32,406 bases of DNA from an uncultured Arenicella sp. (GTDB lineage: Bacteria; Pseudomonadota; Gammaproteobacteria; Arenicellales; Arenicellaceae): NCBI GenBank assembly GCA_937989675.1, contig CALKRK010000147.1:1-32406 (forward strand). The letters run 5' to 3'. The notes below the pieces were generated by a model. It saw nothing but the letters and a program-made list of their open reading frames with translations, searched no databases and was not told where the DNA came from. Each line of letters opens with the position of its first letter. Within the stretch, counting starts at the first letter, position 1. A program made the translations under genes and the position numbers. Of the stretch, positions 8,316 through 31,599 are shown piece by piece.

Positions 8316-9383
8316 CTATTTTCCCTCGCTAAACTTGTTGAAAGGACGCGGCCGCAGAACTCGCGCAAACGCTGAATTTTTAACTTTTTTAATGACTCTT
8401 GAGTTCACACCGCCTTTATTTCGTTGAGATGGTTTTACGATACCCCCTCGACGCTTTAGACTCGCAATTTGTCTTCGCTTAGCGAAAACTCCAGTCTTGC
8501 GATAGTGTTTATTTCGGTTTCGCTCTCGCCGAGCTGTATCTGGATGCTCGCCTGGCACATTTGAAGATCCGGCAGGCATATTATGTTCATCTAATGGTCG
8601 GATCAGTGAACTCGCGATCAGTTCTTGAGGAACAAGGCCCACTCGACCTAAATGTTGAGTTGCCTCCATGATTGCTCTGGAACGGTTCGTCATTTCGCCG
8701 CCACGTTCATAGGTGTTTGGATCAAAATGACCACCAATATCCACGTTCTCGGGGCCATGCCCAAAACGCAGATTACCCATCGATCTGGAAATTTGATGAA
8801 TAGAACTATTGAGATGGCCAGTACTGTATGAGCCTGGGCCATGCCGCATCGCCTCAAAAAAGCTAAACATGCTGCTGTCGCGCGCGGTTGTATCGTGGCC
8901 AGCTAAGGCCCCGAAAAACCCGGATATCGCCGCCCTCTGCTTATCAGAAGTGCCGCCACCCTGATGATAAACTGTGAAGAGTGAATGATGTAGGACGCTG
9001 GCGACTGAGCTATCAGCAAGAATGTGATTTCGATTCACACCCAAATCGGACAAATTTGCTTCCCCGGTCGCGCTCATATTGGCAGAAACTCGACGGAAAG
9101 AATCGGTCATTTTGTTTTCGTGGTTAGCCCCATACGCCAACATATTACGAGTGACGTCATTGCCCATAGATTTGCGTGTATAAGTTGCCAGGGACCGGGC
9201 TAGGCCATACCGGTTACCGGCTTGATCTACCATACTATCGAGCGCAATCTGCCTCGATGAACCTTTTGGGTAGGTGTAATCAGGGTTGCTGGCGACCCCT
9301 GAAAATTTACGCGGCATGATAAATGCATCGGACCCCCAGCTATGTCCGTATTTAGCAACACGACGTCTTGGTCTGGAATCCAC
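8316..9383 (-). CDS. Unknown protein with highly basic C-terminus, T6SS-linked effector candidate
   Basis: No family is recognised. The 355-residue product starts at a GTG (9383) with an AGGGAG ribosome site. There is no signal peptide or membrane helix. Residues 117-126 read NRNHILADSS, a polar His/Asp motif in a moderately conserved-looking helical region. His-Gly pairs occur at 181, 209 and 218-219. Residues 284-350 are extremely basic (RRERNRNKHYRK, AKRRQIASLKRR), as in proteins that touch nucleic acid or membranes. It is the last well-supported gene of the T6SS operon, about 100 bp after the clan-CD-like gene. A cytoplasm-acting toxin such as a nuclease is a guess from charge and context only. 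Confidence 0.6.
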   Translation of the reverse strand: MDSRPRRRVAKYGHSWGSDAFIMPRKFSGVASNPDYTYPKGSSRQIALDSMVDQAGNRYGLARSLATYTRKSMGNDVTRNMLAYGANHENKMTDSFRRVSANMSATGEANLSDLGVNRNHILADSSVASVLHHSLFTVYHQGGGTSDKQRAAISGFFGALAGHDTTARDSSMFSFFEAMRHGPGSYSTGHLNSSIHQISRSMGNLRFGHGPENVDIGGHFDPNTYERGGEMTNRSRAIMEATQHLGRVGLVPQELIASSLIRPLDEHNMPAGSSNVPGEHPDTARRERNRNKHYRKTGVFAKRRQIASLKRRGGIVKPSQRNKGGVNSRVIKKVKNSAFARVLRPRPFNKFSEGK

Positions 9384-9425: not shown

Positions 9426-9458
9426 AAAAAAACACTCGAAGTTTGATCAAGAACTCGC
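9426..9458 (-). terminator. Imperfect hairpin with T run between two tail genes
   Basis: On the minus strand CGAGTT and AACTtCG pair around a TTGATCA-containing loop with one bulge, followed within three bases by seven T (9432-9426). It could act as a partial terminator that lowers expression of the basic-tail gene relative to the genes upstream. The bulge and low GC make it weak. Confidence 0.35.
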
Positions 9459-9486
9459 TTTTTCAATTCAAATAAGAACATAAGCG

Positions 9487-10602
9487 CTAACCTCTTGGTA
9501 CCTGAACTCGCGCACGTGATCGCGGCACACTTATTTCAGGCTTTGTCTCGCCGGGCGTAGAGAGCTCAATTTTGGTAAACGGTTGTACTGTGGCACGCAA
9601 CGCCGCCGATACACTCCGCCGCACAGGTATGCGTGGCGCCAGGTGATTCATCATGCCCTGAATAGGTACACCTAAGCGATGTACTCCAACTGCGTTCGGA
9701 TTTACGCGATGTTTAATCGGTGCCTGCCTAGCATCCGGTGCCACGCGAGCTTTGGCGCGCAAGCGAGTAAAGGCATTTTCCATAGCTGGGGTGACAGCGG
9801 CCTGCTTAACTCGTTGTTTAACTTTAGTGCGAAACTGTCCTCGAACCGGGTGCGATGAATTGGTGTCGCCGATAAATCCGCTGACTCTAATTCTCGGATT
9901 GGCGCCCTGCGCGTCGAGCGCGGAAGAAACGCTCTTGGCAAAATTCGGCGGCTCGGGTGGCACCACCCCACCAACCGGATCTCGACGAACCGTTCCTGCA
10001 CTACCACAAGACGATATTCTCACATCCAAGCCATGCGCCTCGGGCGCTTGATTTAGAGGCGCTGGGGGTTTAAGCATGGCGGTGATATGTCGCACACTAT
10101 TCGCAATTTGATCAGCTGTGTGAACCTGTTTGTAGCCTCGTTTAACCGTCAAATTTCTCTGCGTTGGTCCATCATGAATGGTGTTTTGATCAACCTGATA
10201 CTCAACTCGTGTCGATATTGAATTCGCGTTATTCGCATTGCCGTGGCCCTTAACCCAAAGAACATCTGCGGGGCCGCTATCCAGCGCATTATTTCCAGGC
10301 GCTGCGCGCGCGCCGTGGTTTATGACTCTAACAGCATTGTGCGCATTGCGACGCTGCTCCCTAAGACTTCGTAGTTCTCGAGTGCTCAATTTTGCGAGTG
10401 CCCTAGAACTATTAAGTTTACTATCAATGTGTGACACATAGCGTGCTCGCATAACCGCTTGAGCTTCAACTGTATCAACAAATATCGAGCCAGCCGTCAC
10501 TCCGGTCTTATTTAGCTCCTCAAACGCCGCACGCCCGTGCGATGTATCATGAGCCGCTAGCCCAGGTAAGTATACGTGCGTTCTGGATGTTCTAGGGTTC
10601 AT
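9487..10602 (-). CDS. Candidate caspase-like (clan CD) cysteine peptidase, T6SS-linked
   Basis: The 371-residue protein shows the two hallmarks of clan CD peptidases in the right order: a hydrophobic strand ending in His-Gly (ADVLWVKGHG, His120-Gly121) and a second strand ending in Ser-Cys (LDVRISSCGSAG, Cys199). Between them ADQIANSVRHI resembles the helix after the catalytic His. After Cys, FAKSVSSALD and RIRVSGFIGD match the helix-strand that follows in C80/CHAT-like folds. Residues 1-100 and the basic C-terminus (255-371) have no match. No signal peptide is present. The ATG at 10602 has an AAAGGAAG ribosome site. It sits in the T6SS tail, so a proteolytic effector is plausible. No family can be named and activity is untested. 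Confidence 0.6.
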   Translation of the reverse strand: MNPRTSRTHVYLPGLAAHDTSHGRAAFEELNKTGVTAGSIFVDTVEAQAVMRARYVSHIDSKLNSSRALAKLSTRELRSLREQRRNAHNAVRVINHGARAAPGNNALDSGPADVLWVKGHGNANNANSISTRVEYQVDQNTIHDGPTQRNLTVKRGYKQVHTADQIANSVRHITAMLKPPAPLNQAPEAHGLDVRISSCGSAGTVRRDPVGGVVPPEPPNFAKSVSSALDAQGANPRIRVSGFIGDTNSSHPVRGQFRTKVKQRVKQAAVTPAMENAFTRLRAKARVAPDARQAPIKHRVNPNAVGVHRLGVPIQGMMNHLAPRIPVRRSVSAALRATVQPFTKIELSTPGETKPEISVPRSRARVQVPRG

Positions 10603-10645
10603 AAAATTTACTTCCTTTGACGTGCAGACCAGCTGCAGCTATTCG

Positions 10646-10660
10646 CCAAGGCTCGCTTGG
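10646..10660. repeat. Small inverted repeat CCAAG-GCTCG-CTTGG between tail genes
   Basis: A 5-bp stem with a 5-base loop lies in the 96-bp gap between the Ala/Gly-rich and clan-CD-like genes. GACCA/TGGTC arms further out (10627-10631 and 10658-10662) offer a competing longer pairing. No T run follows, so a processing or attenuating structure is as likely as chance. Confidence 0.25.
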
Positions 10661-10698: not shown

Positions 10699-11388
10699 TC
10701 AGTTGCGATTCGACATACGGCCATGGATCCAATGGCCTATCGCCGAACCCACGGATATAAATCCACCCGCTGCGGCAACCGTAGGATGGCGAAGTGCACT
10801 CATCGCTGACGCTTGCAAAGCGGCCCTGGCCGTTGGCCTAACAGCCGCACCAACAGCGGCACCAACTGTGCGACCAATGCCTGGTGCGCCGGGGCCGACA
10901 GTGGCGGCACCAACTTGTGTGGCCACACCGTGCCGGGTGTTGTTCCAATATCTGTGCTCTAACCTACCTGACGGCATCATTGCGCGGACTCTGGCGAGAA
11001 AACCGGTAGGCATCTGTTGATGCATCAATCCTTGCATTTCAGCTGATTGGAAAACATCACCAATCCGTGCGGCACCAGCATTTCCACCAATCGTGTGTAT
11101 AGCCGAAATGTTTCTTGCTATGCCCACCGCTGCCGAGTTAGACCCTGCTTGAGCTCTGGCTTGAGTAGCTGCTCGATAGGCGAGTAAGCGTTGCTGAGCC
11201 GGCGGAGTACTTCCGTGCGCTGCATGATATTGTTGGCCCATTCGATACGCCACAAATGCGCCACCAGCAAAACCGCCAGCCGCTGCACCTGTATAGTCTC
11301 GCTGGTCAGCCGGATGCGGGCTAGCAGGCCGCGGAGCCGCGACCTGCGCCCGAATCGCTTCTATCGGGGTAGGATGTTCAGATGCCAT
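10699..11388 (-). CDS. Ala/Gly-rich protein with glycine-zipper segments, T6SS-linked, unknown
   Basis: No family is recognised in these 229 residues. Three weakly hydrophobic, small-residue segments are visible: GAAAGGFAGGAFVAYRMG (about 34-51), GRTVGAAVGAAV (about 172-183) and VAAAGGFISVGSAIGHWI (about 203-220). Such glycine zippers are common in membrane-inserting or pore-forming proteins. The rest is rich in Ala, Arg and His and has no signal peptide. The ATG at 11388 has a strong AAGGAG ribosome site that lies inside the end of the upstream GNAT gene, and the two genes overlap by 11 bp, so they are co-translated. Pore-forming effector, effector chaperone or immunity protein are all possible; none is established. 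Confidence 0.6.
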   Translation of the reverse strand: MASEHPTPIEAIRAQVAAPRPASPHPADQRDYTGAAAGGFAGGAFVAYRMGQQYHAAHGSTPPAQQRLLAYRAATQARAQAGSNSAAVGIARNISAIHTIGGNAGAARIGDVFQSAEMQGLMHQQMPTGFLARVRAMMPSGRLEHRYWNNTRHGVATQVGAATVGPGAPGIGRTVGAAVGAAVRPTARAALQASAMSALRHPTVAAAGGFISVGSAIGHWIHGRMSNRN

Positions 11389-13570
11389 GTCTATTCTCCT
11401 TTTTAGCTGCGGGCTTTTCGAGTTGTATTTGAGACCCTATGTTCAACAGCAAGCTACGTAGAGACTCACTACTTTTTGAGTCAACATCTGACTCGGAATT
11501 GATAAAAAATAGATAGTCCTGGTCCGGCGCTTCTGCGCGCACACTTTGCTGCTTAAAGCCCAGTTGATTCAACGCTGACAGCGAGCGCGAATTGTCTCGG
11601 AACACGCAGGTGTGAAATCGACTAACACCTAATGAATGTCGAGACATAGTAAACAGTAACGTGGCCGCGAGCTGCCCTAAGCCCTGCCCCTGATAATCGA
11701 CACCAATCCAAAAATAAAAGAATGAATCCCGCCCCGATGTGTTTAGCGAAACCACACCTATAAGGCCGAACTCCTTATGCACCACCGCGTAAACATTTTT
11801 TCGCGCATTGTTATGCTGATCATCTAACCAATCAAAAAACGCGGCCTGAGTTTCAAAACTAGGAAGAGATGTCATTACGGCTATGGATGGGTCTCGGTAT
11901 TGATACAAAAATTCTTCGGTATAATGGGCAGCTAATGGCTGCAAACTGATATCACCAGAACGCGCATAACTTTCTGTATAGCCCGTCATGGACTCACATA
12001 AGCTGATGTAGCTCTGAATATGCGCCAGCGTTTCAACGATTATCGGGTTTCTCGGGTCGAGCTGTTGCGCTCGCCTTGCGGCTCTCAACGCGTCAGTCTT
12101 GTCGCCTAAATGCAAGTAAACAAGCGATAGGCGATGCTGCGCTTCGACTAAATCTGGGGATCTTTTGCATACCAGCTCGAGCGCGCTTTTTGCTACAGAC
12201 CATGCGCCTAACTGGATTGCGAGAATGGAGAAATCCAGCACATGTTCAAGGTCACCTTCAAAGAGGTAAACACGTCGCCAAACTTGTTTGAACATTTCGA
12301 CCCACTGCAAACGCTGCCCACTATCAAGTTGTGGTATTGCCTCCCGCAAAGCTCCCATCTGAGAGAACAACAAACAATAATCAAAATGCGTCATCTCCAG
12401 CAAAGTATGCAATTGATCAACGGTTAACGGCTCGCTAGCCCGCAGAGATAAGTTAGAAATCTGACGTACTTCGGCGTCATTGCACGTAAGTAATAAATCT
12501 TGGATTGAGCCTGAAGTATCTACTTGACTATTGCCCTGGAAGCAGATGGCCGCTTTCAATGCTGAACTACCATAACGTTGATTGTAAAAAACGCTTCCAT
12601 TATTTAGTTGCGCATACCAATTCAAAGCATGCCCATTAACGGGTAAAAAATACCGATTGCTCTGACCGAAAAATGGAATAGTTTGTTCACGCACACTTCG
12701 TTCACTATGGAAACCTCTGTCTGCTATTAGGAATAAGCAACTGGAACCGGCTAAGCTTTTGACGTTCTCAATCAATTTAAATGCTTGAGTCGGCATCAAC
12801 ACATTCGCGCTATCAAAGCGCTCCAAATAGCGTTTTAGGAGCGCTGTATTTTTAGGCTTATCTGTCGCCTTTTGCCAATGAAATTCCAGGTCCGAAAACG
12901 GTTCTAAGTTACCTTGACCACCCCATTTCAGATCATCGTTCTTGAGAAAAGACTGGTAACACTCTCCGTAGTGGATGTTGTAAAAGTCTTGCCTCAACGA
13001 ACTAAAAACCGCGTTCGCGATGACAACAAGCGGATTGCCAATACTGCGGGCGCCTAAGGCTAAACGTTGGCTTTTCAATTCTATATATCGGTCTACAAGG
13101 GAGTCAAAACTAATAGGTTCCATGCTGCCCTCTTGTATCCAGTGCGCGAGTGCCGCGTGCTGCCAGTTATCGGAAACGCGCTCCGCTCTAGAATCAGCCA
13201 GTAAGTAACAAGGGCGATACCGATACCACTCGGCATCACTTAGCGTATCTTTTAGTTCATGCAAAACCCGGTTAGCAAATTCTCCCGAATTGGCTTCAAG
13301 TTCAAGAATGTAACAGGGCTCCGCATTATTCAGTTCGCCAGCCTGATCAGCAACGCGCCACTGGTCAGCAATTAAGCGCGCATAACTGCGCGCGAGCGCC
13401 GGGCTCTCTACTTCGTTCTTGAGTATAGCCTCGTAACCGCTACTTAGTTCAGATCGCCATTCTTGAATTGTGTGCCAGACGTTACTATCATCAAAAGGCA
13501 CTAAATCCAATACTTCAGCCCGGTTTTCGTTAGGGTGACCGGCTTCAAATTTGTTTGTTTCTTTGTTCAT
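11378..13570 (-). CDS. Large T6SS-linked protein: degenerate methyltransferase-like, TPR and GNAT domains
   Basis: The 730-residue product appears to have three parts. Residues 55-300 follow the layout of MidA-type SAM-dependent methyltransferases: ILELEANSGEF (88-98) in place of the glycine-rich SAM loop, LVVIANAVFSSL (181-192) and LFLIADRGF (279-287). The SAM loop is poorly preserved, so activity is doubtful. Residues 440-512 contain TPR-like helix pairs (LVEAQHRLSLVYLHLGDKTD, ALRAARRAQQLDPRNP). Residues 540-690 are a GNAT acetyltransferase with the acetyl-CoA loop QGQGLG (627-632) and the terminal N-x-x-S-L-x-x-L-x-x-LGF pattern. It is cytoplasmic. A GGAGGCG ribosome site precedes the ATG, 37 bp after tssA. 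A role in modifying or regulating T6SS parts or effectors is inferred from context. Confidence 0.75.
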   Translation of the reverse strand: MNKETNKFEAGHPNENRAEVLDLVPFDDSNVWHTIQEWRSELSSGYEAILKNEVESPALARSYARLIADQWRVADQAGELNNAEPCYILELEANSGEFANRVLHELKDTLSDAEWYRYRPCYLLADSRAERVSDNWQHAALAHWIQEGSMEPISFDSLVDRYIELKSQRLALGARSIGNPLVVIANAVFSSLRQDFYNIHYGECYQSFLKNDDLKWGGQGNLEPFSDLEFHWQKATDKPKNTALLKRYLERFDSANVLMPTQAFKLIENVKSLAGSSCLFLIADRGFHSERSVREQTIPFFGQSNRYFLPVNGHALNWYAQLNNGSVFYNQRYGSSALKAAICFQGNSQVDTSGSIQDLLLTCNDAEVRQISNLSLRASEPLTVDQLHTLLEMTHFDYCLLFSQMGALREAIPQLDSGQRLQWVEMFKQVWRRVYLFEGDLEHVLDFSILAIQLGAWSVAKSALELVCKRSPDLVEAQHRLSLVYLHLGDKTDALRAARRAQQLDPRNPIIVETLAHIQSYISLCESMTGYTESYARSGDISLQPLAAHYTEEFLYQYRDPSIAVMTSLPSFETQAAFFDWLDDQHNNARKNVYAVVHKEFGLIGVVSLNTSGRDSFFYFWIGVDYQGQGLGQLAATLLFTMSRHSLGVSRFHTCVFRDNSRSLSALNQLGFKQQSVRAEAPDQDYLFFINSESDVDSKSSESLRSLLLNIGSQIQLEKPAAKKENRHGI

Positions 13571-13607: not shown

Positions 13608-14729
13608 TCACTGATGACTCACACTTTCATTAGCACTCGCTTCAATGCCCAATAACTCGAAAATATTAAGCTGCCCTTGTTGCTGCACAAATAACTCGTT
13701 GTATAGCTGAGTCGTGTTCATTCGCCCCCAGTCTATTGCCTTATAGATCAGGTATGGGGCCGGGCTGTGGGGGTCATCTACTTTGAGATAGTCGGCGATA
13801 CTCTGTAATGCTGCGTAAGCATCGTTACGATTACCCAGTCCTTGTTCATGGCTCTCGATATGTTCCGGCCGAGAGTCTTCCTGAGTTTCTTCACTAGGCA
13901 CCTCAGTGCCTCTTGGCATCGGCAATCGACCCCTTTGATCTAATTGCTGATAAGCCATACCGGCAACGTCTTCCAGTACGCTGGTAAACCCAGCAAGGCT
14001 GGGTGAATCATTAGCGAGCTTTTCATCCAGCACCCGGCTTAACTCATCAACCGCAAGCAAGGCTAATTCAATATCCGAATAAAGTTGTTGATAGTACTCA
14101 ATTGGGGTCAGATTGATGTTCAAGGCAATTGCATCTAAATCATGCTCCTGATCGCTCGCAATCACCTCTGGATGTGCATTTTGAATCTGCGAATGATGTA
14201 AGGCTAGTTCCCAATCCGCCCAATTGTATTGTCGGTCGGTGTCAGCTCTTTGTGTTAGCGGTATTTGCTTTAGCGTAATCGCCAACTTCATATTCAACCA
14301 TTCAAAAACGTTAATCCGATGTTCAAGCTCACCGTCACTTGCTTGCGGGTAAAGCGAACCCCAAAAAGTTTCAAGCATCTTGCTAATTAATTGGATACTT
14401 GGCGCGATTGCGCCAAAACCCAAACGGCAAGTCTGTGCTTCAAGGAACCACACGGCTAGTTGCACATCTTTACTGTGGTTTTGAATGGCATTTAGCGCTT
14501 CCTGATAGACCGTATTCCAATCAGCTTGACGTAATTCCAGCTCCCAAACGCCTCTCGGCGTACTGTTGTCATCTTGGGTTCGTGCCTCTTGAATTTTTTG
14601 GTAAATCGCGCCCCCAAACAAACTCTCACCTGCCGGACTGTCTGCTGATATTGGTTGCAAAAGCGCTTGTAGCTCGATGCGGTTTTGTGCGTAGAAAATA
14701 GGTTCTAATTCTTGTGCTAATTGGTCCAT
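13608..14729 (-). CDS. tssA: T6SS assembly protein TssA
   Basis: The 373-residue protein carries the ImpA N-terminal domain that defines TssA: LLQPISADSPAGESLF (24-39), then YQKIQEAR, WELELRQADW, SKDVQLAVWFLEAQTCRLGFGAIAPSIQLISKMLETFWGSLYP-type helices, and a DGELEHRINVFEWLN stretch. TssA binds the membrane complex and baseplate, then caps and primes tube and sheath growth in the cytoplasm. The remaining part is Glu/Gln-rich and variable, as usual. The start has a GAGGTGAACC ribosome site 8 bp after tssM. It ends the recognisable core of the operon. Confidence 0.92.
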   Translation of the reverse strand: MDQLAQELEPIFYAQNRIELQALLQPISADSPAGESLFGGAIYQKIQEARTQDDNSTPRGVWELELRQADWNTVYQEALNAIQNHSKDVQLAVWFLEAQTCRLGFGAIAPSIQLISKMLETFWGSLYPQASDGELEHRINVFEWLNMKLAITLKQIPLTQRADTDRQYNWADWELALHHSQIQNAHPEVIASDQEHDLDAIALNINLTPIEYYQQLYSDIELALLAVDELSRVLDEKLANDSPSLAGFTSVLEDVAGMAYQQLDQRGRLPMPRGTEVPSEETQEDSRPEHIESHEQGLGNRNDAYAALQSIADYLKVDDPHSPAPYLIYKAIDWGRMNTTQLYNELFVQQQGQLNIFELLGIEASANESVSHQ

Positions 14730-14737
14730 GGTTCACC

Positions 14738-17700
14738 TCAAAAGGTCGGAGCGGTGGAAGGAAAAATGTCGGGAACGGTTTTCAGTTCGAGCTGCTTGGT
14801 CTTGCTATTGGTGCCGTACACGTCAACGCCTACGATCAGATTAATAACGCTGGGAACCAATTTAGTTTCAGTCGCACTGCTGGTACTGGTTTGTGTTTTT
14901 TTGGTGTTAACAGGAAACAACAACTTGATTGATCCGGACTTGGGCACCAACGTATTGGCGGCGATATTACTTCGATAGCCTTGTAATAAACGCAATAGCG
15001 CCCAATTCCCAGATTCAGGAAAAGTAACGGTGTAATCACCCACTAAATTAACGACACTACTCGGCATAGCTAGTTGATAAGTTGACGTGCTGGCAAGTTG
15101 ATAGGTTGAGGTATTAGCTAGGCGAGCTGTAAAGCTCATATCAGCGCCAAAATTCCAAACCAGCTGATCAGTGCTACCTGGGATCGCGACTTCATTGCCG
15201 TTGGATTGCAAAGATTGGCTGATGATTTGCTCCTCACCAATGGATGGCTTAACAAGCACTTTGAACATCGGTTTTATCGTCAAACTGGCTGTTGAAGTAG
15301 CATTGCCAGTCGACAAATTATCACCAAGAAATTCTGAGACTGTTATCAGTTGGCCAATAAAGTCTCGTGCAGCAACATGACGGGTATCGGCTTGCGCTTT
15401 CAAACTAAGCTCTTTATAAAGAGCTGCACTGAAGGTATCGAATTCAGTAAAGAAATTGTCCACGGCTGCGAAACTGGCATCAACCGCAGTCGCTTTAGAC
15501 ACATCAACGAAAGGAAATTTGCCTTTTAAATTGGCATTAAACTCTGACACAACCCAATCGTAATTTTTGCTCGACTGTGACTCCTTGCTTTGACTGCAAA
15601 ACGCAACAATGGACTCCATCAGTGTCGTCTGCGAATTAGTAAAAATGTCTTCGCCCGGCCCGATCGTCACGTTAGTTGGGCAGTTATCGAGCGTCAGCGT
15701 CATTGAATCGGCAAACATTTTTTCCAACGTCGTTAACGAATTTGTTGGATCTTTTAGCGCATACCTACTCAGTTGCGCCAGAGTTTGCTGCCAACTCTCT
15801 TGCGTGATGCTTTGATTCGCTGTTTGACCCGAATCCAGGTTCAAAAGATAGGCAACCGGATTATTGGCGTAATTCTGCGCGATAAAACTAGCACGTTGGC
15901 TCTGTGATAACAGGTAGTTTTTCAAACTCTTTGCATCGGAAATACCATAGAGCGCACCAATGACAGTAGGCTCACTATCATTAGTAGGCACTTGCGGCAG
16001 GTATAGCCGACTAGCACTAACAAGTTGATCGGACGATTGTAGTAACGACAATGCGGCTTTGGCTGTCGTCGCCTGCCAGGCTTGCGATTCAGCTTGGAAA
16101 CCTAATTGAGAAAGCGCCTCTCTAAGTTGATAAAATAAGTCCATCGTCGAGTTGAAATTTTTCACCTGGCCAAGTAAGTCCTGTTCAAGGCTAGCCACAC
16201 TATTTGCACTTTTACTGGCCACCACAGCCACGTCGGTCTGTGCCCATGCAAGCTCATAATTCATCGCCAAACGAAGCTGCGCGAGAATACCGCTTTGAAG
16301 TACGTAAGCTTTGGCATTGGAGCTTGTTTCTGATGGCAGCTTTAAACCCTCAAAGTTAGCTATGGCGTATCGCTCATACTCTCGATAATAACTAAGCGCC
16401 TTAAGTAAGCGTTGAGTATCCCATATGACTTTATCTGGCGTTTTAGGGGGCAATTGAGAAGTATCCAGAGCCATAAACGCGAGGTTTTGTACGCTCCCGA
16501 AACTTCCCCTCAATGCGACCACCGCCGAGCTAAACCGCAGTTTTTCTTCATCACCCTGAACGGCGACAAAGAGCGGCGTAAGCGCGGCCAGTTTATTGGT
16601 TTTCAATTGTTGATAGAAGACGCTCTCGCAATTGTGTTTGTCGAACAAGGCAATGGTTTTATCGGCGATCGATGCCGCAGCACCGCTCTGCTCATAACTC
16701 CAGCCAGCGTCCACGGCCGTGAGCCGCTGGTACATTTGTTGACAAGGGTTAACACCAACGTCGTCGCCCACCCACATTTTGTCGAGATAGCTAAACCAGT
16801 TTTCCAGCTTCACGTAGTCGTTACCACTTAGCTCATCGCTCTCCGCTGAATCTGCACTCAGATCTGGAAGCATCGATGAACTTTGAATCTGTTTGTAAAA
16901 CGCCGTTGCCTCTTTTTCAACAAGCGACCAAAACAGCGATGATGATGCGTTATCCACACCCGACGAACCATTGGGGCAACGTTTATTAACTCTGTTGTAG
17001 TTGTAGTCTAAGCGTTCGAAGGCTTCTTGGTACAATTCGTTACGACGAAAAAAACCAGCGGCTGGCTTGATACCATAGAGGGCCAATATCAAATTCGAAA
17101 AATCATCTAGGATTGTACCGCTTGAATTTCGAGTCGGCTCAGAGAGGCTGATAAAGGTGCCTCGCGTTTGCTGAAATTCATCTAAGCGATTAAGCCATGC
17201 GCCAGCGTAAGCCCATTGAAAGACACCAGAAGAACGATCAAACACCGCAGAAGGTTCATACAGCAAAAGCGATTTAAAACGTTGCGAGACTCGACATTGC
17301 ATTGCAGGAAACACCACACCAGCCAACTGTTGATCTGATATCCGCTTGACTAACTGTTCATCGGTTGATGAGAACCAAGAAATTGGCAACCCCAAACGCG
17401 AAAAACTTCGAGCGTCAACGTCGCTTAACTGCTCGAGAACTTTATACACCTCGCTGTACCCAGTTCCACTATCAAGTTTAGGCGACTTAATGGTATTCAT
17501 TGTAACGGCAACGTTGTTCAACTGCGCTTTAAGGCTCCAAAGGTTCCACACCCCAAGCAACACTAGGAACATTAAGGCCGCTACACTGACTCGCTTATAA
17601 CGAGTAAGGAGCTTTTCATGCAGCCTCAATCCATGCCCAGTTGGGACTGCGAAATTTGCTTCAGAGGCTATCTTATTTTCCAGCAAGTCGTTAAGAAAAA

Positions 17701-18727
17701 GAGTATCACTTGACTGACTAGACGCGCTATCTTGAGTGCTTTGACCAACGAAGTACAAACCCCTGAATTCAAAACCGTTTTGGTAAGAATCTTGTTTGAA
17801 CAAAGTATTGCAAACCATCTCGACGCGGCTTTTAAGCAACGACAAGTCGTGATCTACCAATACATAATCATCGGCATCAAATAGACCGTTTAGTTGAGAC
17901 GAACGAACCACTTGATTGCGATGAATCGACTTTGCAACTGAGAAAAACGCTCGCTGCACGAACTGTGCCCGATAACGTGAACCAAAATCTTCGTCGCTCG
18001 ACCAGCCAAAAATCTCATCGTGCTGATCTTTGTTCTGACGAGCAAACGCCTGATAACTCGGCAGAACATCACAACCGCTCACCACCACATATATAGGCAA
18101 ATGAAATGGTACTTGTTTATCAACAACTAGCATGCTGTTACTTAGACGTTCACTCAGTTCATCCAGCTGCTCCTCGTTTTTTCCCATCACCTCTGACACT
18201 GGAATCGAAACCAAAAGCCCATCAATTGGACGTTGAGGGCGCTTTCGCGTGATTCGCTCTATCACGCTTTTTAGATTACCAAGCGACGAAATCGAAACAT
18301 CAAGCAAAGTTAGTTGCTTTAGAGACAAGCATTTATCTTGCGAATCGCTCGCGAGCAAATCACGTATATGAGATGGTGGGAGTCGTTTGGTCTTACTCGG
18401 TGGCAAAGAGCCAACTAAAGAAGCTTCAAGGGTAGGATTGAGCACCAAGTACAAAGGTACGTCGTATTGGCCGTGAGCTCGGCTGAACAATTGATGAGCT
18501 ACCGTCGCTACCGTATTCCAAATATCTTTGAAACCGTTTTTAAGTTTGCTAAGTAGGCGCTTCCATAAGCTCTCGTCCGGCGATGACGCCTCACCAGCAG
18601 GAACCTTGAACCAAACCCAAACCAAGGCAATCACGATCAGAAGAACAATTGCTAATACAATCAGTGCCGGATAACTCGAAATTAAACGGCCTGCATCATT
18701 CGCAACTTGTAGGAGCCAGTCTTTCAT
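14738..18727 (-). CDS. tssM: T6SS inner-membrane complex protein TssM (IcmF-like)
   Basis: TssM spans the inner membrane and reaches through the periplasm to TssJ, forming the trans-envelope channel with TssL. The start chosen is the ATG at 18727, which overlaps the tssL stop as ATGA and gives 1,329 residues; a longer frame exists but lacks a reason to be used. Residues 18-42 are a transmembrane helix pair or long helix, and about 377-397 is a second membrane segment. The cytoplasmic part keeps FHLPIYVVVSGCDVLPSYQAF and EIFGW, typical of IcmF proteins. At the P-loop position (90-112, YLVLNPTLEASLVGSLPPSKTK) no Walker A is present, so this TssM should not hydrolyse ATP. Near residues 1,203-1,218 an 8-residue unit (TSTYQLA core) is tandemly duplicated. 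Confidence 0.93.
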   Translation of the reverse strand: MKDWLLQVANDAGRLISSYPALIVLAIVLLIVIALVWVWFKVPAGEASSPDESLWKRLLSKLKNGFKDIWNTVATVAHQLFSRAHGQYDVPLYLVLNPTLEASLVGSLPPSKTKRLPPSHIRDLLASDSQDKCLSLKQLTLLDVSISSLGNLKSVIERITRKRPQRPIDGLLVSIPVSEVMGKNEEQLDELSERLSNSMLVVDKQVPFHLPIYVVVSGCDVLPSYQAFARQNKDQHDEIFGWSSDEDFGSRYRAQFVQRAFFSVAKSIHRNQVVRSSQLNGLFDADDYVLVDHDLSLLKSRVEMVCNTLFKQDSYQNGFEFRGLYFVGQSTQDSASSQSSDTLFLNDLLENKIASEANFAVPTGHGLRLHEKLLTRYKRVSVAALMFLVLLGVWNLWSLKAQLNNVAVTMNTIKSPKLDSGTGYSEVYKVLEQLSDVDARSFSRLGLPISWFSSTDEQLVKRISDQQLAGVVFPAMQCRVSQRFKSLLLYEPSAVFDRSSGVFQWAYAGAWLNRLDEFQQTRGTFISLSEPTRNSSGTILDDFSNLILALYGIKPAAGFFRRNELYQEAFERLDYNYNRVNKRCPNGSSGVDNASSSLFWSLVEKEATAFYKQIQSSSMLPDLSADSAESDELSGNDYVKLENWFSYLDKMWVGDDVGVNPCQQMYQRLTAVDAGWSYEQSGAAASIADKTIALFDKHNCESVFYQQLKTNKLAALTPLFVAVQGDEEKLRFSSAVVALRGSFGSVQNLAFMALDTSQLPPKTPDKVIWDTQRLLKALSYYREYERYAIANFEGLKLPSETSSNAKAYVLQSGILAQLRLAMNYELAWAQTDVAVVASKSANSVASLEQDLLGQVKNFNSTMDLFYQLREALSQLGFQAESQAWQATTAKAALSLLQSSDQLVSASRLYLPQVPTNDSEPTVIGALYGISDAKSLKNYLLSQSQRASFIAQNYANNPVAYLLNLDSGQTANQSITQESWQQTLAQLSRYALKDPTNSLTTLEKMFADSMTLTLDNCPTNVTIGPGEDIFTNSQTTLMESIVAFCSQSKESQSSKNYDWVVSEFNANLKGKFPFVDVSKATAVDASFAAVDNFFTEFDTFSAALYKELSLKAQADTRHVAARDFIGQLITVSEFLGDNLSTGNATSTASLTIKPMFKVLVKPSIGEEQIISQSLQSNGNEVAIPGSTDQLVWNFGADMSFTARLANTSTYQLASTSTYQLAMPSSVVNLVGDYTVTFPESGNWALLRLLQGYRSNIAANTLVPKSGSIKLLFPVNTKKTQTSTSSATETKLVPSVINLIVGVDVYGTNSKTKQLELKTVPDIFPSTAPTF
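15070..15118 (-). repeat. 24-bp tandem duplication inside tssM
   Basis: Two adjacent in-frame units encode NTSTYQLA and STSTYQLA in the periplasmic C-terminal region of TssM. The DNA copies differ at several bases, so the duplication is not brand new. It adds one beta-strand-like unit without disturbing the frame. Confidence 0.6.
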
Positions 18728-19476
18728 CCTGCACCTAGTCCAGCAAAAAACGAGGACGTTAACCACCACCAAACAGCACTGCTAATCGCTAGGTAGACCA
18801 TCAGCGAACCAAACACGATCTTATGCCAATCTGAAAACGGCTCAAGCTTTTTTGCGCTAGATGGGTTAATGATGGAACCATAACCGGATGGGAACAATTG
18901 CTCAGGTATGCGTGCGTAACCAGCCTTGGGCAGCAAGCGCTTACGGATAGTTCGAACTAATTTTTCGTTGCCTCGCAGGCGGCCGCGAAACCCAAGCTGC
19001 AATGACAAAATAAAAACAGCCGCTAGCTTTTTCTCTAAGGTAGTCAATACATCTTTGTTTAATAGCTTGCCTAAACGTCGGTAATATTCGTCGCCAGCAT
19101 ACGATGTCGAAAAGACACCAGCTTCGATCGAGAACTCATGCCAATACTGAGCGCCGAACCAGCGTATCTCAAGTAAAAATATTTCATCAGCCAGAGCGCT
19201 CATTACATAACTCACATCTTGATACGCCGCAAATTCCAACGCGCTGGTATTACTCGCCACGTACTCCATTTGGCTATTGAGCGCAGCCTTTAGATACGAG
19301 GCTAACCGGCGCGTCGCATCGCGTTCGCTAACATCTGCCGGCACCTCTTCATCAGTAATTTCAGCCCAGTCGATAACTCCTTGCATGATCATTCGCTTAA
19401 CCTGATACACACGACTATAGAACTCTTTAAAGAGTTCCATCGTATTGAGGCCTTGCCATTCAAGCATCGCGTTCAT
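18724..19476 (-). CDS. tssL: T6SS inner-membrane protein TssL (DotU-like)
   Basis: A 250-residue DotU-family protein: an N-terminal cytoplasmic helical domain with LASYLKAALNSQMEY, SYVMSALADEIFLLEIRW and FILSLQLGFRGRLRGNE, the last being the family's most typical segment. One C-terminal membrane helix follows (about 222-245, IVFGSLMVYLAISSAVWWWL). The extra OmpA-like peptidoglycan-binding extension of some TssL proteins is absent, so anchoring must come from another protein or be dispensable. TssL links TssM to the cytoplasmic baseplate. The stop overlaps the tssM start (ATGA). Internal Met4 or Met13 are alternative starts. Confidence 0.93.
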   Translation of the reverse strand: MNAMLEWQGLNTMELFKEFYSRVYQVKRMIMQGVIDWAEITDEEVPADVSERDATRRLASYLKAALNSQMEYVASNTSALEFAAYQDVSYVMSALADEIFLLEIRWFGAQYWHEFSIEAGVFSTSYAGDEYYRRLGKLLNKDVLTTLEKKLAAVFILSLQLGFRGRLRGNEKLVRTIRKRLLPKAGYARIPEQLFPSGYGSIINPSSAKKLEPFSDWHKIVFGSLMVYLAISSAVWWWLTSSFFAGLGAG

Positions 19477-19498: not shown

Positions 19499-20848
19499 TT
19501 ACGTTGAATAAAGCCAAATCGATTCAGGCTTATCTTGATCTGACTTCTGACTAGCACTGGTGATAATCAACCTCTCACCAAACCGTATTGACGGGTCGGA
19601 CGCACTGAGCAATACAACCACACGAGCACGTTCGGATTCCGACTCGAAAATAGGCTTAGTAAGCAATTTTCGTTGCGCGCCGAGCAAGCGTTTTTGACCA
19701 ACGCCGCGCAGCATCGACTCGCTGACGATACGCGCAGATTGCACATACTCTTTTAGATGACGCTCACTTACGCCCAGCTCTCCGCGAACTTCAATGGTCA
19801 GCGTCTCACTGTTAGCTGGCTTCTCGAGTTGGATACTGAACTGATCACCTTCAAGATCGAATTGCAGTAGCTTGAAGTGCGACTTAATGGTATTGATCAG
19901 GCTAGCTAGGCATGCAATCACCACATTAAAACTGGCGCGCATATCATTATGATCATAGGGTGGAAATTTTGGTGGCACCGGGTTTGCCGTCAGCTTCACC
20001 AATGCACCTATGGCATTGCAGAAAGTCGAATACGCGTTAAACGGATGAATATCCGCCGATAAAGTAAGTTCCAACGACGGTAAAACTGAGCCCAATATCT
20101 CCGACATCTCTCGCTTTTTGGCACGCGCATCGCGGCTTAAACCTGTAGCGTCAGATTCTGCAATCCCCGAGAGCTGTATCGCTTTTTGTCGTAGCGCCTG
20201 CACCAATCGTTCAAGCGTGGTAAACAAGGCTTCGGAACTACCAACTTTGCGTGAGTGAAAACGTCGGGTCGGCGGCACGTATTCGGTGGTCTTAAACGTA
20301 CCGTCATTTTCTTTGCGAACGCGCGCGATCGGCATCGCCACGTATTTACCCGGCGGAGACTCCCCAACGTAAAGGCCATAACGAGGCCTTAGTCGATACA
20401 CCTCAACCGCGTTCTCCCCGGTGTTCTCATCAACTACCGGCTCAGAACTCTGCATCGAGTCGAAGCGTTGGATCTCAGCACGTTGAAACGCGGCGCCCTT
20501 ATCTCGAATTGGCACAACTAAATACACAGTCGCTACCGACCCACCTAATTCAAGATTAGGCGAATCACCTAAGCTTATCGAAATTTTTGCGTCCAGCTTG
20601 TCGTCATAATTGACGATTAAGCCATCTGGCATCATGCCATATACTGATCGTAAACTAAGCTCTCCAGACAGAAGGCTGCTCTGATCAAACTCAAGGTCAA
20701 CCAAACCCCAATAATAGGGTTCTGACATAGTCAGGTGATGTTGACGCTCTATATCTCGGTAAACCTGATCCTGCTGAAAGTGCTGTGGCGATAACAACAT
20801 ACCTTCGTGCCACTGCACCGGAAACTGACGTTGTTTTACAATATGCAT
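19499..20848 (-). CDS. tssK: T6SS baseplate connector TssK
   Basis: The 449-residue product has the TssK opening VQWHEGMLLSPQHFQQDQVYRD (first half of that string is the family signature), with later segments GLVDLEFDQSSLLSG, LYVGESPPGKYVAMPIARV and a RVVVLLSASDPSIRFG-type C-terminal neck and head. TssK trimers connect the TssF/G/E wedges to TssL and TssM at the cytoplasmic face of the inner membrane. Length is normal for the family. It lies 40 bp after tssJ and 22 bp before tssL, as in many T6SS loci. Confidence 0.94.
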   Translation of the reverse strand: MHIVKQRQFPVQWHEGMLLSPQHFQQDQVYRDIERQHHLTMSEPYYWGLVDLEFDQSSLLSGELSLRSVYGMMPDGLIVNYDDKLDAKISISLGDSPNLELGGSVATVYLVVPIRDKGAAFQRAEIQRFDSMQSSEPVVDENTGENAVEVYRLRPRYGLYVGESPPGKYVAMPIARVRKENDGTFKTTEYVPPTRRFHSRKVGSSEALFTTLERLVQALRQKAIQLSGIAESDATGLSRDARAKKREMSEILGSVLPSLELTLSADIHPFNAYSTFCNAIGALVKLTANPVPPKFPPYDHNDMRASFNVVIACLASLINTIKSHFKLLQFDLEGDQFSIQLEKPANSETLTIEVRGELGVSERHLKEYVQSARIVSESMLRGVGQKRLLGAQRKLLTKPIFESESERARVVVLLSASDPSIRFGERLIITSASQKSDQDKPESIWLYST

Positions 20849-20888: not shown

Positions 20889-21389
20889 TCATGATTTTGA
20901 ACTCTCCACCACAGTCACCTTAGATTTACCAAAGGTTAGAGTCGGTTTTTTATACGGCGAAATATCCAAGGTGTAATCAGCGCTTTCCTTTATGTAGTTT
21001 GCATACACCATTACCGTGAAGGCCTTTTGGTAGGGAATTGGAAACTTGCTTTTCTCTTTTTTGGGAATCAGTGTTGGTTGAGAAATGGGCACCAATTCGT
21101 AATTGAAAATAACGAGCTTTCCAGGGTATTGAAGTTGAAACTGCGTCTTCTCGTCGAACCATTTTCTGGCGGTATACTTAGTCAGCTGCGCCACCAATGC
21201 TTCTTCATAAATAAACACAATATCCACCGCTAAGGCGGAGCTCTGGTTCACATCGTCAGTGGCAACTAAGTGTATGCGTTCAATCGCGTTATCGCTGTAA
21301 CGGGGCAATAGAGTTTCCAGTTTCGAACATCCTGCCAAAACAAGGATCAGCACGAACGCCCACAACAACCTAAGAGCTAACCATTTCAT
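20889..21389 (-). CDS. tssJ: T6SS outer-membrane lipoprotein TssJ
   Basis: A 166-residue lipoprotein with signal sequence and lipobox VLAGC (Cys21). The mature part is a small beta-sandwich with NQSSALAVDIVFIYEEALVAQL and a conserved PLP-like stretch replaced by LEPISQPT-type residues. TssJ sits in the inner leaflet of the outer membrane and holds the periplasmic end of TssM. Its start overlaps the stop of the PAAR-like gene by 4 bp (ATGA), so the spike cassette and membrane-complex genes are translated together. Length and position before tssK support the call. Confidence 0.9.
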   Translation of the reverse strand: MKWLALRLLWAFVLILVLAGCSKLETLLPRYSDNAIERIHLVATDDVNQSSALAVDIVFIYEEALVAQLTKYTARKWFDEKTQFQLQYPGKLVIFNYELVPISQPTLIPKKEKSKFPIPYQKAFTVMVYANYIKESADYTLDISPYKKPTLTFGKSKVTVVESSKS

Positions 21390-21784
21390 GTCAGCACCAT
21401 TACCTTTAATTGACTTGGAGATATGGTTAAACCAACCATGTTTCCGGCGGGCCCATTCTGCTCAGTTGGTGACAACATTTTGACCACCGGCATCGCCGTG
21501 GAAAATACTTTGAAGCTACCGATGATGTGCCTCTCGGGCCCCATCATCATTCCAGACGCAACCCCACCTACCACGCCAGCGTTATCGCCATTGCTAATAA
21601 ACGCTGTCGTTAAAAGATTATGGACAGGCATACACTCGATAAACTGATTAAATACGCTGGGTATCGACGTAGAGGTAATCGCAAAGTTCGGATATGGTAT
21701 CGGCACAGGTCCTGCTGGCGTTGGCGTATTACAAACATCAGGAAACGCGAAATGAATGGCCGGAAAGAAAGTATTCTGAAACAT
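21386..21784 (-). CDS. DUF4150 PAAR-like spike-tip protein
   Basis: The 132-residue protein shows the DUF4150/PAAR-like pattern: PDVCNTPTPAGPVPIPYPNFA near the N-terminus (in two parts, PDVCNTPTPAG and PVPIPYPN), then GDNAGVVGGVASGMMMGPERHI and NMVGLTISPSQLKVMVL. These domains are thought to form a sharp cap on the VgrG trimer and carry effectors. No toxin domain is fused to it, so cargo would be recruited by the DUF2169 and pentapeptide partners. It starts 2 bp after the DUF3540 stop and overlaps tssJ by 4 bp. Confidence 0.88.
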   Translation of the reverse strand: MFQNTFFPAIHFAFPDVCNTPTPAGPVPIPYPNFAITSTSIPSVFNQFIECMPVHNLLTTAFISNGDNAGVVGGVASGMMMGPERHIIGSFKVFSTAMPVVKMLSPTEQNGPAGNMVGLTISPSQLKVMVLT

Positions 21785-21786
21785 AT

Positions 21787-22344
21787 CTACCCCATGTTGA
21801 TGCGCTCAGCATCAAGCCTCAAATCCTTGTTCGCCGTGATCACCTGATTCTCGGCATCAATCTGTAGCATTTGTGCCGCGTTTAGTGTCCCCTGATCACA
21901 ACGATGCACCCAGTTTTTCATTACATTTACAACGCTTCCAAAAGCGGTTTGAAACAGGTTTTCACAGGCTAGCTTTATGTTTTTGCAGGTTTCTACACTG
22001 ATCTCCTTTGCGGCCCGAAGTGATGCGGTTTCACGCCCGGTTAACACTAAGTTGTCTGCCGTTAGATTAAGCGTATCTGCGCAATTAAACTCCAACGAGA
22101 CGCTGGCACGTTTGGCGGCTCGAAGCAGGCTAGTAATGAAAACTCCTTCGGTCGTCTCTAGGTAACTCACATAGTCTCCTTGCATCAAACCGATCCCCAG
22201 CCCGTCCGCCGAATAGGCAGCTATATGTTCGTCGATAACGTATACCCCATTCTCACAAGCGCTTATCCAACCGGTTTGTACTGGCGAACCAATCGTCAGG
22301 CCCTGTTGCGTATCGGATTGCACTAGACGGTTAACAGCATTCAT
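21787..22344 (-). CDS. DUF3540 T6SS-associated protein
   Basis: A 185-residue protein with the DUF3540 architecture: an N-terminal small beta domain with GLTIGSPVQTGWISACENGVYVI-type strands, then a long repetitive beta-helical stretch (LNLTADNLVLTGRETASLRAAKEI, GSVVNVMKNWVHRCDQGTLNAAQ, ENQVITANKDLRLDAERINMG read in separate parts). The repeats resemble VgrG-type beta-prism segments, so it may extend or brace the spike. The biochemical role of DUF3540 is not established. Its ATG overlaps the previous stop by one base (TAATG), which implies coupled translation. Confidence 0.85.
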   Translation of the reverse strand: MNAVNRLVQSDTQQGLTIGSPVQTGWISACENGVYVIDEHIAAYSADGLGIGLMQGDYVSYLETTEGVFITSLLRAAKRASVSLEFNCADTLNLTADNLVLTGRETASLRAAKEISVETCKNIKLACENLFQTAFGSVVNVMKNWVHRCDQGTLNAAQMLQIDAENQVITANKDLRLDAERINMG

Positions 22345-23408
22345 TAGATGAGCCCTCGTTGTTGTAGTATAAATTCCGCTTCGATCCGCCCTGGGCTCTC
22401 TGGCAATGGCAGTGCGCCTTCGAGAGCTAAAAGGTTCGAACCTTCACTGATTAGTTGATGAGTATTGATGAATTCCATTTCACAGCCACTGAAGTCACAT
22501 GCGAATAGTTCAGCACGAGCAAGATTTGCTCGATCTAGCTTGGCACTATTAAAACTACACTCCTTTAATTTTGCCGCTTCCAATGTGGCGCCACCCAATT
22601 CACTTGAATCGAACGTGGATTGTGAAATACGAGCTTTCCCAAAGTTAGCGCACGCAAGGCCTGTTTCTTGAAAAACACTTTGCGTAATATCAGCCTTGAC
22701 AAACAATGCCTGTGTCAAATCCGCTTGGGCGAAATCAACGTTAACTAAAGTCGTTTCTATAAACACACTTTGTGTAAGGTTGGCCTTCGAAAATCGACTG
22801 TTCGTAATGTTGCACTCTGAAAAATTACATCTTAAAAAATGAGCCCCTGACATTTCCCAACCGGTTATCGTGCTACCAATAAACATGACTTGTTCAAAAC
22901 AATTTATTTGCATCTTCACGGATGAAAAATCCGATTTAGCCCACGCAACATTTCTCTGCAGACCGCCCACTAAAGACATGCCAAGTAAATTGTTTTCCAA
23001 GAACGCTGTTGTATCAAAAACAACGTTGACCCAACTCACTCCACTGAAATCATTACCAGCAAAGTGGCTCTTATTGACTTTCATTGAATCCAATGAAGAG
23101 CCATTCAGATCACACTTCATAAACGCAGATTGATCTATCGTTCCACCACTCCATTGAACATCGTTCAAGCTGCATTGCGTAAAGCGAGTTTTTACCAGGT
23201 TCGGCTTAACCAGCATCGCACTATCAAGTTGACACTCAACAAAACTACTCTCAATAAGGCCATCGCCTTTTAATGCTGAATTACTAAAATTCACCTTATG
23301 AAAAATTCCACCGCCGAGATCAACATCACTCAGATCCAGATTAGATAGATCAACTTCACTTACTGGCTGTCGGTCTGCGACCGCCATTTTTAACTCATTC
23401 ACGTTCAT
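22344..23408 (-). CDS. T6SS-associated pentapeptide-repeat protein
   Basis: Nearly all 354 residues are pentapeptide repeats of the A(D/N)Lxx type, for example NLDLSDVDLGGGIF, ANLTQSVFIE, ADLTQALFVK, ADITQSVFQE and AKLKECSFNS. They should form a right-handed four-sided beta-helix of roughly 12-14 coils. No DNA-gyrase or enzymatic motif is added. In T6SS loci such proteins travel with VgrG and DUF2169 and are thought to act as scaffolds in loading the spike; that role is inferred. Its ATG overlaps the stop of the larger pentapeptide gene by 4 bp and its own stop overlaps the DUF3540 start. Confidence 0.88.
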   Translation of the reverse strand: MNVNELKMAVADRQPVSEVDLSNLDLSDVDLGGGIFHKVNFSNSALKGDGLIESSFVECQLDSAMLVKPNLVKTRFTQCSLNDVQWSGGTIDQSAFMKCDLNGSSLDSMKVNKSHFAGNDFSGVSWVNVVFDTTAFLENNLLGMSLVGGLQRNVAWAKSDFSSVKMQINCFEQVMFIGSTITGWEMSGAHFLRCNFSECNITNSRFSKANLTQSVFIETTLVNVDFAQADLTQALFVKADITQSVFQETGLACANFGKARISQSTFDSSELGGATLEAAKLKECSFNSAKLDRANLARAELFACDFSGCEMEFINTHQLISEGSNLLALEGALPLPESPGRIEAEFILQQRGLI

Positions 23409-28290: not shown

Positions 28291-29343
28291 TTAATGAAGA
28301 GATGTCGGGTTAATCGTTCGGCGTGTCGTCTTTAATGTGTCTTCTTGCACTCCCCCGGCGGTTTTCAGCCAACTATTCAAACCCAAACGCGGGCCATTAG
28401 AAAATTTGGACTCGGGTATGCTCGGTTCGCGAACATCAATAATCGTGTGCAAAACCCACTGCCCATTAGTGGTATAGCGAAGCAATTCAACCAAGCGGTC
28501 ATAATCAGCTTCTCCCGGCATCCAGCTTTCCGCCGTTGCGTAATCGACAGGCCCTATTTCTATCTCGATGGCATTTTGTTGATCCCAGACACGCTTACCC
28601 AACGCAACTTTGTCACCAAGTCGTTGAGGTTTGAGGTTCATTTCTAAGCCCGACTCCGAGCTGCCCGGCGCCATCGCCAACCTCGCGTGATAGGCTTTAT
28701 CTAAGGGTACAAACGCGCCTTGCATGGAACGAATTTTCACTGGCGCTCTCAATAGCGTCGATAAGATTTGATCTACTGATGCCGCAGATGCACGCCCACC
28801 AGCAAGTAAACCAGCAAAGGGTAATAGCGGCGCAAACCGAGCTTCAGTATCACCAACGCGGTTTGAACCCAGTGGTAAACCGCTGACCGTCTTTAAATAA
28901 CGATACAAATTGGATGACGAGCGCGGCCCTTTATGCAGGCCAGCATGAAAACGTTGCTTGATCAGATAGAGCAAGGAGATAAAACGATGCTCAAACAAAC
29001 TCAAAAACGCTTTTAGCTCAGTACGCCCGGCTCGGGCCTCTGCATATACCCATTCGCTGTGCTGCTGGGGCAACGGCCCCAATGGCCCAGACAAGCCAAA
29101 CGTTGCAACAGTCATCTTTGGCCTAGTCGTATCGAATGCAACCTGTGAAATATCATTTGCATGAAACTGATCGCCAGACTCCGTACAGAAGTCGAGCGCA
29201 CGATCTATGCGATCTAACTCAGGCAGATCCGCATCGTCTGACTGCGATAACAAGCGCACCGCTTGATAAAAATTAAACTGCGCTGGATGGTCTCTTAGAC
29301 CATCTCTTACAACAGCGCTTTTTCGCCCGTCATAGGTGGCCAT
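28291..29343 (-). CDS. tssG: T6SS baseplate protein TssG
   Basis: A 350-residue TssG: FNFYQAVRLLSQ (24-35), FDTTRPKMTVATFGLSGPLGPLPQQHSEWV with the family's FGLxGxxGPLP signature, LSLFEHRFISLLYLIKQRFHAG, and FAPLLPFAGLLAGG later on. TssG pairs with two TssF copies and TssE to form each baseplate wedge that docks to TssK. Its start lies inside the end of tssF with a 37-bp overlap, indicating coupled translation. The length is usual for the family. Confidence 0.93.
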   Translation of the reverse strand: MATYDGRKSAVVRDGLRDHPAQFNFYQAVRLLSQSDDADLPELDRIDRALDFCTESGDQFHANDISQVAFDTTRPKMTVATFGLSGPLGPLPQQHSEWVYAEARAGRTELKAFLSLFEHRFISLLYLIKQRFHAGLHKGPRSSSNLYRYLKTVSGLPLGSNRVGDTEARFAPLLPFAGLLAGGRASAASVDQILSTLLRAPVKIRSMQGAFVPLDKAYHARLAMAPGSSESGLEMNLKPQRLGDKVALGKRVWDQQNAIEIEIGPVDYATAESWMPGEADYDRLVELLRYTTNGQWVLHTIIDVREPSIPESKFSNGPRLGLNSWLKTAGGVQEDTLKTTRRTINPTSLH

Positions 29344-31160: not shown

Positions 31161-31172
31161 TGCAAACTCATC

Positions 31173-31583
31173 CTAAGCATCCGCCGCAGGCAATGCCAGC
31201 GGAATGCGAAACTGTATCGGTGTTTGAGACTCCCTAAGTGTGCCAGCAACGGTCACCATGAGTTTAGTTGGATCGTTATCCAGATAACTGCCACCGACGA
31301 CCGGGCCTAAAAGTCTCGGTTCGTAGGTTTCGATTGCATGGCGCACATTGTCCACCACCTCAGCAACACGACTTGGCTTTGACTCACCAGCAGTGACAAC
31401 ACTGGCTACACCGTAGTCAAGTATGGTTTTGGTGGTATGAGACTTTCCAGATAAATAGGATCGCGAGTTAAGCAGCCGATTTAACTCACCTTCAACCGAG
31501 GCTAACTCCGCGTTACGGCGATCAACCGGACTGGAAAAATCGTCGCTAAGTGGCTTAGAAATTCTGTCAAAGAGTGAGCGCAT
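31173..31583 (-). CDS. tssE: T6SS baseplate protein TssE (gp25-like)
   Basis: A 136-residue gp25/TssE protein: N-terminal SLFDRISKP, then LASVEGELNRLLNSRSYLSGK, ILDYGVASVV, and the gp25 core VRHAIETYEPRLLGPVVGG containing the conserved E-P-R-L. TssE nucleates sheath polymerisation on the baseplate. It lies 16 bp after hcp and 12 bp before tssF. Length is close to family average and no domain is missing. Confidence 0.93.
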   Translation of the reverse strand: MRSLFDRISKPLSDDFSSPVDRRNAELASVEGELNRLLNSRSYLSGKSHTTKTILDYGVASVVTAGESKPSRVAEVVDNVRHAIETYEPRLLGPVVGGSYLDNDPTKLMVTVAGTLRESQTPIQFRIPLALPAADA

Positions 31584-31599
31584 CTTGCTAAATCAATCG

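Follow-up and report, generated by a model that had tools for sequence, protein, structure and literature searches.

Caspase-like toxins that have the T6SS among their delivery routes were described by Zhang et al. in 2012 (PMC3482391), where the Tox-Caspase domains are presented as peptidases with a releasing role and in some cases as toxins themselves. CHAT proteins occur in a variable region of a Bacteroides fragilis T6SS, for which the authors suggest immunity proteins (PMC11854122). RARP-2 of Rickettsiaceae is characterized in PMC11077975 as an effector protease with a His/Cys dyad and minimal analogy to clan CD. On the side of delivery, DUF2169 proteins have been reported as chaperones of VgrG–PIPY spikes (PMC11883445 and PMC13373197).

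The protein considered here, P0001, resembles the Tox-Caspase and other clan CD toxin domains in the order of its motifs (H, then C), and the T6SS route is listed for these domains in PMC3482391. The scanned Pfam and NCBIfam models, however, detected no sequence similarity of P0001 to them, nor did they reveal a PAAR, RHS or toxin domain in it. By eye, it shares with CHAT domains (PF12770) the strand-HG and strand-S-x-C-x-S pattern; however, its His-to-Cys distance is 79 residues versus 45–58 in the CHAT domains of eight relatives. By its description in PMC11077975, RARP-2 differs in being a T4SS substrate with ankyrin repeats. In the literature searched, no paper was recognised as describing P0001. 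Given that caspase-like T6SS toxins have already been described, P0001 is at most one more orphan among them.

The window, i.e. the whole stretch of 32 406 nt that was analysed, is a single contig from an uncultured Arenicella sp. and contains a T6SS gene cluster running on the minus strand from 32184 down to 11378 (Table 1). The T6SS-operon setting proposed for P0001 in an earlier note, made from the DNA letters alone, was thus borne out by Pfam and NCBIfam matches of the neighbouring genes. With VgrG, a PAAR-like protein and DUF2169, the system is like the DUF2169/PIPY spike systems of PMC11883445 and PMC13373197; P0001 is not among the accessory proteins named in the abstracts of these two papers. 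The P0001 gene lies on the T6SS strand just beyond the cluster, with 96 bp between it and the upstream ORF 10699-11388; the latter in turn overlaps the TPR-GNAT gene. Three basic orphan ORFs follow the cluster, in the order 10699-11388, P0001 and 8316-9383; past the last of them the minus strand carries a gene for a YadA-anchor protein, and a sigma-54 activator and a SPOR-domain protein are encoded on the plus strand. The TPR-GNAT gene sits between TssA and the cargo-like genes both here and in the second genome discussed below (G016), and its acetyltransferase may serve to modify the T6SS or its cargo.

Table 1. Features of the T6SS cluster and of the adjoining basic orphan ORFs (positions in the window)
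Feature	Position	Strand	Basis
355-aa basic cargo-like ORF without cysteine	8316..9383	-	Of 21 family genomes, found in this one only; Pfam/NCBIfam: none
P0001, basic orphan protein, candidate cysteine hydrolase	9487..10602	-	Homologue 60% identical in G016; pI 11.5; one Cys
Cys199 codon, candidate nucleophile, GLDVRISSCGSAGT block	10006..10008	-	Invariant; window rank 1 of 371; in the longest identical run
Candidate general base: codon of His120, within LWVKGHGNA	10243..10245	-	Invariant in homologue; 9-residue identical run 115-123
Cargo-like ORF of 229 aa, basic, rich in small residues, no cysteine	10699..11388	-	Nothing over Pfam cut-off; NCBIfam: none
T6SS-cluster protein, GNAT acetyltransferase domain	11378..13570	-	GNAT over Pfam cut-off; TPR-like repeats below; 37% identical in G016
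TssA	13608..14729	-	TIGR03363 over cut-off
TssM (IcmF-like)	14738..18772	-	PF14331 over cut-off; TIGR03348 below
TssL (DotU)	18724..19476	-	PF09850
TssK (VasE)	19499..20848	-	PF05936
Likely TssJ lipoprotein	20889..21389	-	TIGR03352 below cut-off; Pfam: none
PAAR-like spike-tip protein, read as DUF4150/PIPY	21386..21784	-	PF13665; G016 copy, 86% identical, shows PIPY
DUF3540 protein	21787..22344	-	PF12059 over cut-off
Pentapeptide-repeat protein	22344..23408	-	Domain match
DUF2169 + pentapeptide protein	23405..25972	-	Domain match
VgrG	25977..28277	-	PF05954 over cut-off; TIGR03361 below
TssG, TssF, gp25-like (TssE), Hcp	28291..32184	-	Domain matches

According to the ORF list and the translation of the window, P0001 is a 371-aa protein with an ATG start, preceded by AAAGGAAGTAAATTTTATG, which contains the Shine-Dalgarno-like AGGAAG. 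The two motifs of the proposed dyad are where the earlier note had placed them, His120-Gly121 within ADVLWVKGHGNANN and Ser198-Cys199 within GLDVRISSCGSAG, and the three segments that it had cited as fitting secondary-structure pieces (ADQIANSV, FAKSVSSALD and RIRVSGFIGD) are all present in the translation. Cys199 is the sole cysteine of P0001, while HG pairs occur four times, at 22, 96, 120 and 190. A strict definition, by which three or more of the five residues before each site must be hydrophobic, misses P0001 and is satisfied by 118 of 10 000 shuffles. A looser definition, chosen post hoc after the strict one had missed P0001, detects 96/199 and 120/199 as motif pairs; 452 of 20 000 shuffles of the same residues satisfy it. 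By itself, the His/Cys motif pair stands out only mildly, and conservation is the stronger evidence.

A single homologue of P0001 was found, a protein of 355 aa (57–60% identity) encoded at the corresponding place in the congener G016, with the TPR-GNAT gene on one side and the YadA-anchor gene on the other. The alignment answered the question of invariance in favour of the proposed dyad: H120 and C199 are both kept, with a spacing of 79 residues in P0001 and 70 in the homologue, and H96 and H190 are not conserved; with one homologue, the retention of two residues is in itself weak evidence. The longest identical run of the two proteins is GLDVRISSCGSAGT (residues 191–204), the cysteine block, and among 15-residue windows none outranks the one round C199. 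H120 is included in the identical run LWVKGHGNA. By blocks, identity is 24/28 in residues 109–136 and 23/26 in residues 191–216, as compared with 15/45 in the linker (61–108) and 48/105 in the tail (263–371). At the same time, H22 falls within the second longest identical run (residues 21–32), and the windows of H18 and H22 rank 9 of 371 versus 51 for H120; conservation therefore does not single out H120, and the N-terminal H18-D19...H22 was considered as a candidate metal site. A permutation of conservation along P0001 (0 of 20 000) is given no weight, as the method ignores the block structure of conservation.

Within the family, the P0001 gene was detected in two of 21 genomes (78–99% complete), that of the window (3.58 Mb in 288 contigs, 80% complete) and G016. 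The same two genomes are those in which TssA and TssK (Pfam model) were detected, so that the association with the T6SS suggested by the earlier note holds as co-occurrence as well. In the genome contigs, viral contigs, plasmids and phages searched, no homologue of P0001 was found. Among whole genomes of 100 relatives, 11 matched at E ≤ 1; the window's genome and G016 were accepted, and the nine other matches were rejected as short (E 0.0097–0.42), five of them with stops inside. The order sample (109 genomes) yielded the same number, two, with no further credible member. In the class sample, four of 369 genomes matched, of which two were accepted and two (E 0.002 and 0.004) rejected: one locus (L016), inspected by eye, has no ORF resembling P0001, its longest ORF being what we took for a V-ATPase-like gene, and the other (L015) was dismissed from score and length alone. 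In the phylum sample (398 genomes) two matched, the window's genome and another with a 56-residue match interrupted by two stops, which was dismissed. A TssF query against genome contigs found no sister operons, and TssK, with matches in 11 of 369 genomes of the class, showed only 25–30% identity beyond G016. Judging from these searches, the T6SS of the window and G016 is isolated and lineage-restricted.

The surroundings of P0001 differ between the two loci. Neither of its same-strand neighbours has a match in the G016 locus, and 8316-9383 likewise matches nothing elsewhere in G016; an adjacent immunity gene is thus not evident. Conversely, ORF L012:15647-16708 of G016 has no match in the window's genome (G000). 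Two plus-strand ORFs are kept in both loci, 7331-7801 (SPOR domain, 48%) and 7905-8249 (50%), and either may be an immunity gene; the latter, a possible one, encodes a His-rich protein of 114 aa with no Pfam match, has the same place in G016 and overlaps ORF 7812-8315. ORF 7812-8315 (minus strand) is 26% identical in its own frame in G016. As the pair 7812-8315/7905-8249 and the SPOR ORF are also kept, P0001 is constant only among the basic same-strand ORFs.

The cargo-like ORFs of the two genomes (8316-11388 in the window and L012:11496-16708 in G016) are eight in number and have pI values of 10.4–11.7, as against, in the window, 8.5 for TssG and 4.4–7.8 for 11 other proteins of the T6SS machine and cluster. 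They contain 4 cysteines in 2626 aa versus 192 in 16 312 aa of 41 neighbouring ORFs (Fisher P = 1.6e-8), in a set that was picked by eye, with overlapping and minor ORFs of both loci omitted. The difference persists with one P0001 copy dropped (P = 6.0e-8) and with ORF 7812-8315 and its eight cysteines added (12 in 2793 aa, P = 1.3e-4); this ORF was left out of the main count as dubious because it overlaps 7905-8249, which is 50% identical in G016. Since 13 of the 41 other ORFs also have one cysteine or none, a low count in one protein means little.

The cysteine-bearing members of the set hold one cysteine each: P0001, its homologue, a C26/GATase-like protein and the product of L012:15647-16708. 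The C26/GATase-like protein (L012:14356-15543), encoded beside the P0001 homologue, is basic, carries a Peptidase_C26/GATase domain (Pfam E 5.6e-9) and is a candidate for an unusual cargo in a T6SS locus. Its single cysteine, C177, lies inside the domain match at ...VLAICGGSRR..., and from the motif we take it to be the GATase nucleophile; a lone cysteine in this set can thus be a nucleophile. The product of L012:15647-16708, an orphan basic protein of 353 aa, has an HG at 248 and its sole cysteine at C276, with partly hydrophobic residues before each; it shows no BLASTP similarity to P0001 and was not found in the 368 other genomes of the class that were searched. The cysteine-poor composition of the cargo-like set, with its single cysteines, is indirect support for a catalytic C199.

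The earlier note had not recognised the family of P0001, and there was no significant match in Pfam, NCBIfam, PHROGs or PADLOC. With the whole protein, Pfam returned only Phasin (E 0.045, below its cut-off), and with the core none up to E 10; PDB sequences gave no credible match. C80 and CHAT, two of the groups to which the note had likened its layout, fared poorly. For C80, no Pfam match appeared up to E = 1 with the whole protein and E = 10 with the core and with residues 1–265, in searches whose HMMER filters limit weak matches. The layout of Peptidase C80, HG-helix-strand-C-helix-strand, is like that proposed for P0001; however, C80 is an autoprocessing domain of large toxins, and P0001 is a stand-alone protein. 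Kinship to CHAT was not found by hhalign, which gave a probability of ∼1% against the CHAT domains of relatives, at an effective depth of the query of 1.25 (of 11 CHAT loci, eight were used for this comparison and seven for a motif matrix). With the CHAT-derived two-motif matrix, P0001 ranked fifth of 178 ORFs and its score was reached by 44 of 5000 shuffles, but the matrix selects H96 rather than H120, the G016 homologue scores lower still, and a left-out CHAT protein reaches 22 bits versus 7 for P0001. Membership of P0001 in CHAT (PF12770) was rejected on these grounds: no Pfam match, ∼1% in hhalign and a matrix that picks an unconserved His.

Single-sequence AlphaFold2 predictions were of very low confidence, both for the full-length protein (pLDDT 38, pTM 0.19) and for residues 1–265 (pLDDT 37, pTM 0.27), and hence neither support nor refute a caspase fold. 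In the low-confidence 1–265 model a strand (194–199) ends at the Cys and is followed by a helix (220–232) and a strand (238–243); before the Cys there are hairpin strands 131–136 and 155–160 and a helix 163–176, while the strands at 10–11 and 40–41 are just two residues long. A strand before H120 is absent from both models (pLDDT 37–38). The Chou-Fasman average of P0001 and its homologue does place a strand there (114–117); it also places one at ∼91–95, before the unconserved H96, and leaves 163–178 mixed. The predicted secondary structure fits the clan CD order only in part: the strand, helix and strand round the Cys, the hairpin and the helix are in the model, and the strand leading to H120 is not. 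Parts of the order are in this sense weakly supported by modelling. A Foldseek search with the 1–265 model (pLDDT 37) gave a best E of 0.82, with no clan CD entry among the 50 of 167 rows listed; the matches were dismissed as meaningless.

Taken together, P0001 is probably a lineage-restricted T6SS cargo and a cysteine hydrolase of clan-CD-like layout. The full reading, in which the T6SS delivers a cysteine hydrolase whose H120 and C199 form a clan-CD-like dyad, is the one we tentatively prefer and consider quite possible. Its strongest rival, which is possible too, is a T6SS cargo of another fold, without a clan CD dyad between the conserved Cys and His; the cysteine could be a nucleophile of a different kind (e.g. 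in an S-S-C-G-S elbow of a hydrolase), or the protein could act by binding, e.g. of nucleic acid via its basic tail. Such a fold would agree with the lack of positive fold evidence from AlphaFold2 and Foldseek, with the negative CHAT tests, with the better conserved windows of H18 and H22 as compared with H120 and with the pI of 11.5. It agrees less well with the Cys window, which no other surpasses in conservation, with the predicted order round the Cys (a strand that stops at it, then helix and strand as in clan CD, in the low-confidence model) and with the strand that Chou-Fasman alone predicts before H120. In a nucleophile elbow a helix is expected directly after the Cys, whereas the next helix of P0001 in the low-confidence model begins ∼20 residues past it.

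Two further explanations bear on where P0001 acts. As a donor-side accessory protease, it would stay in the producing cell and process or mature variable cargo or T6SS parts, and acting in the donor it would be conserved while the surrounding cargo changes. This is the pattern observed: of the window's three basic same-strand ORFs only P0001 matches the G016 locus, and it is conserved better than TssA (52% identity between the loci), TssM (42%) and the TPR-GNAT protein (37%), although less than TssK (65%), TssL (66%), the TssJ-like protein (64%) and the PAAR-like protein (86%). Its retention while the same-strand neighbours change makes the accessory protease a serious rival; still, we regard it as unlikely, as P0001 is basic and cysteine-poor like the variable cargo-like ORFs and unlike the T6SS machine proteins, and no substrate or cleavage site was identified. 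That P0001 is no T6SS substrate and only an orphan gene set beside the T6SS by chance has in its favour that just two genomes are available, but is highly improbable: the gene occupies the same slot in both, among the 21 of the family it was found only where the T6SS was, and its sequence is under strong constraint.

Under the preferred reading of a delivered clan-CD-like hydrolase, most likely a peptidase, the protein would be laid out as strand-His120-Gly, beta hairpin, helix, strand-Ser-Cys199, loop, helix and strand. Basic P0001 would be loaded either together with the spike (VgrG/PAAR-like/DUF2169) or inside the Hcp tube and injected into a neighbouring cell, which may be bacterial or eukaryotic. 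In the recipient, C199 activated by H120 would cut a target protein; fold, catalysis, proteolytic activity, secretion and target are here all putative. A bolder extension, somewhat unlikely in our estimate, is that P0001 is the first member of a new family of clan CD peptidases and the constant cargo of a T6SS clade that stands isolated, surrounded by swappable basic, nearly cysteine-free proteins, with each enzyme having one nucleophile Cys: C199 in P0001, C177 in the C26-like protein of G016 and possibly C276 in a third protein of G016, which has its own HG/GC layout.

Should the fold not be of clan CD type, P0001 would be an ordinary orphan cargo gene. If the reading is true, the T6SS cargo repertoire would gain a peptidase family that is unrecognised by the scanned sequence libraries, and there would be a testable rule for orphan effectors of DUF2169-type T6SS: a basic, cysteine-poor cargo with a single nucleophilic Cys.
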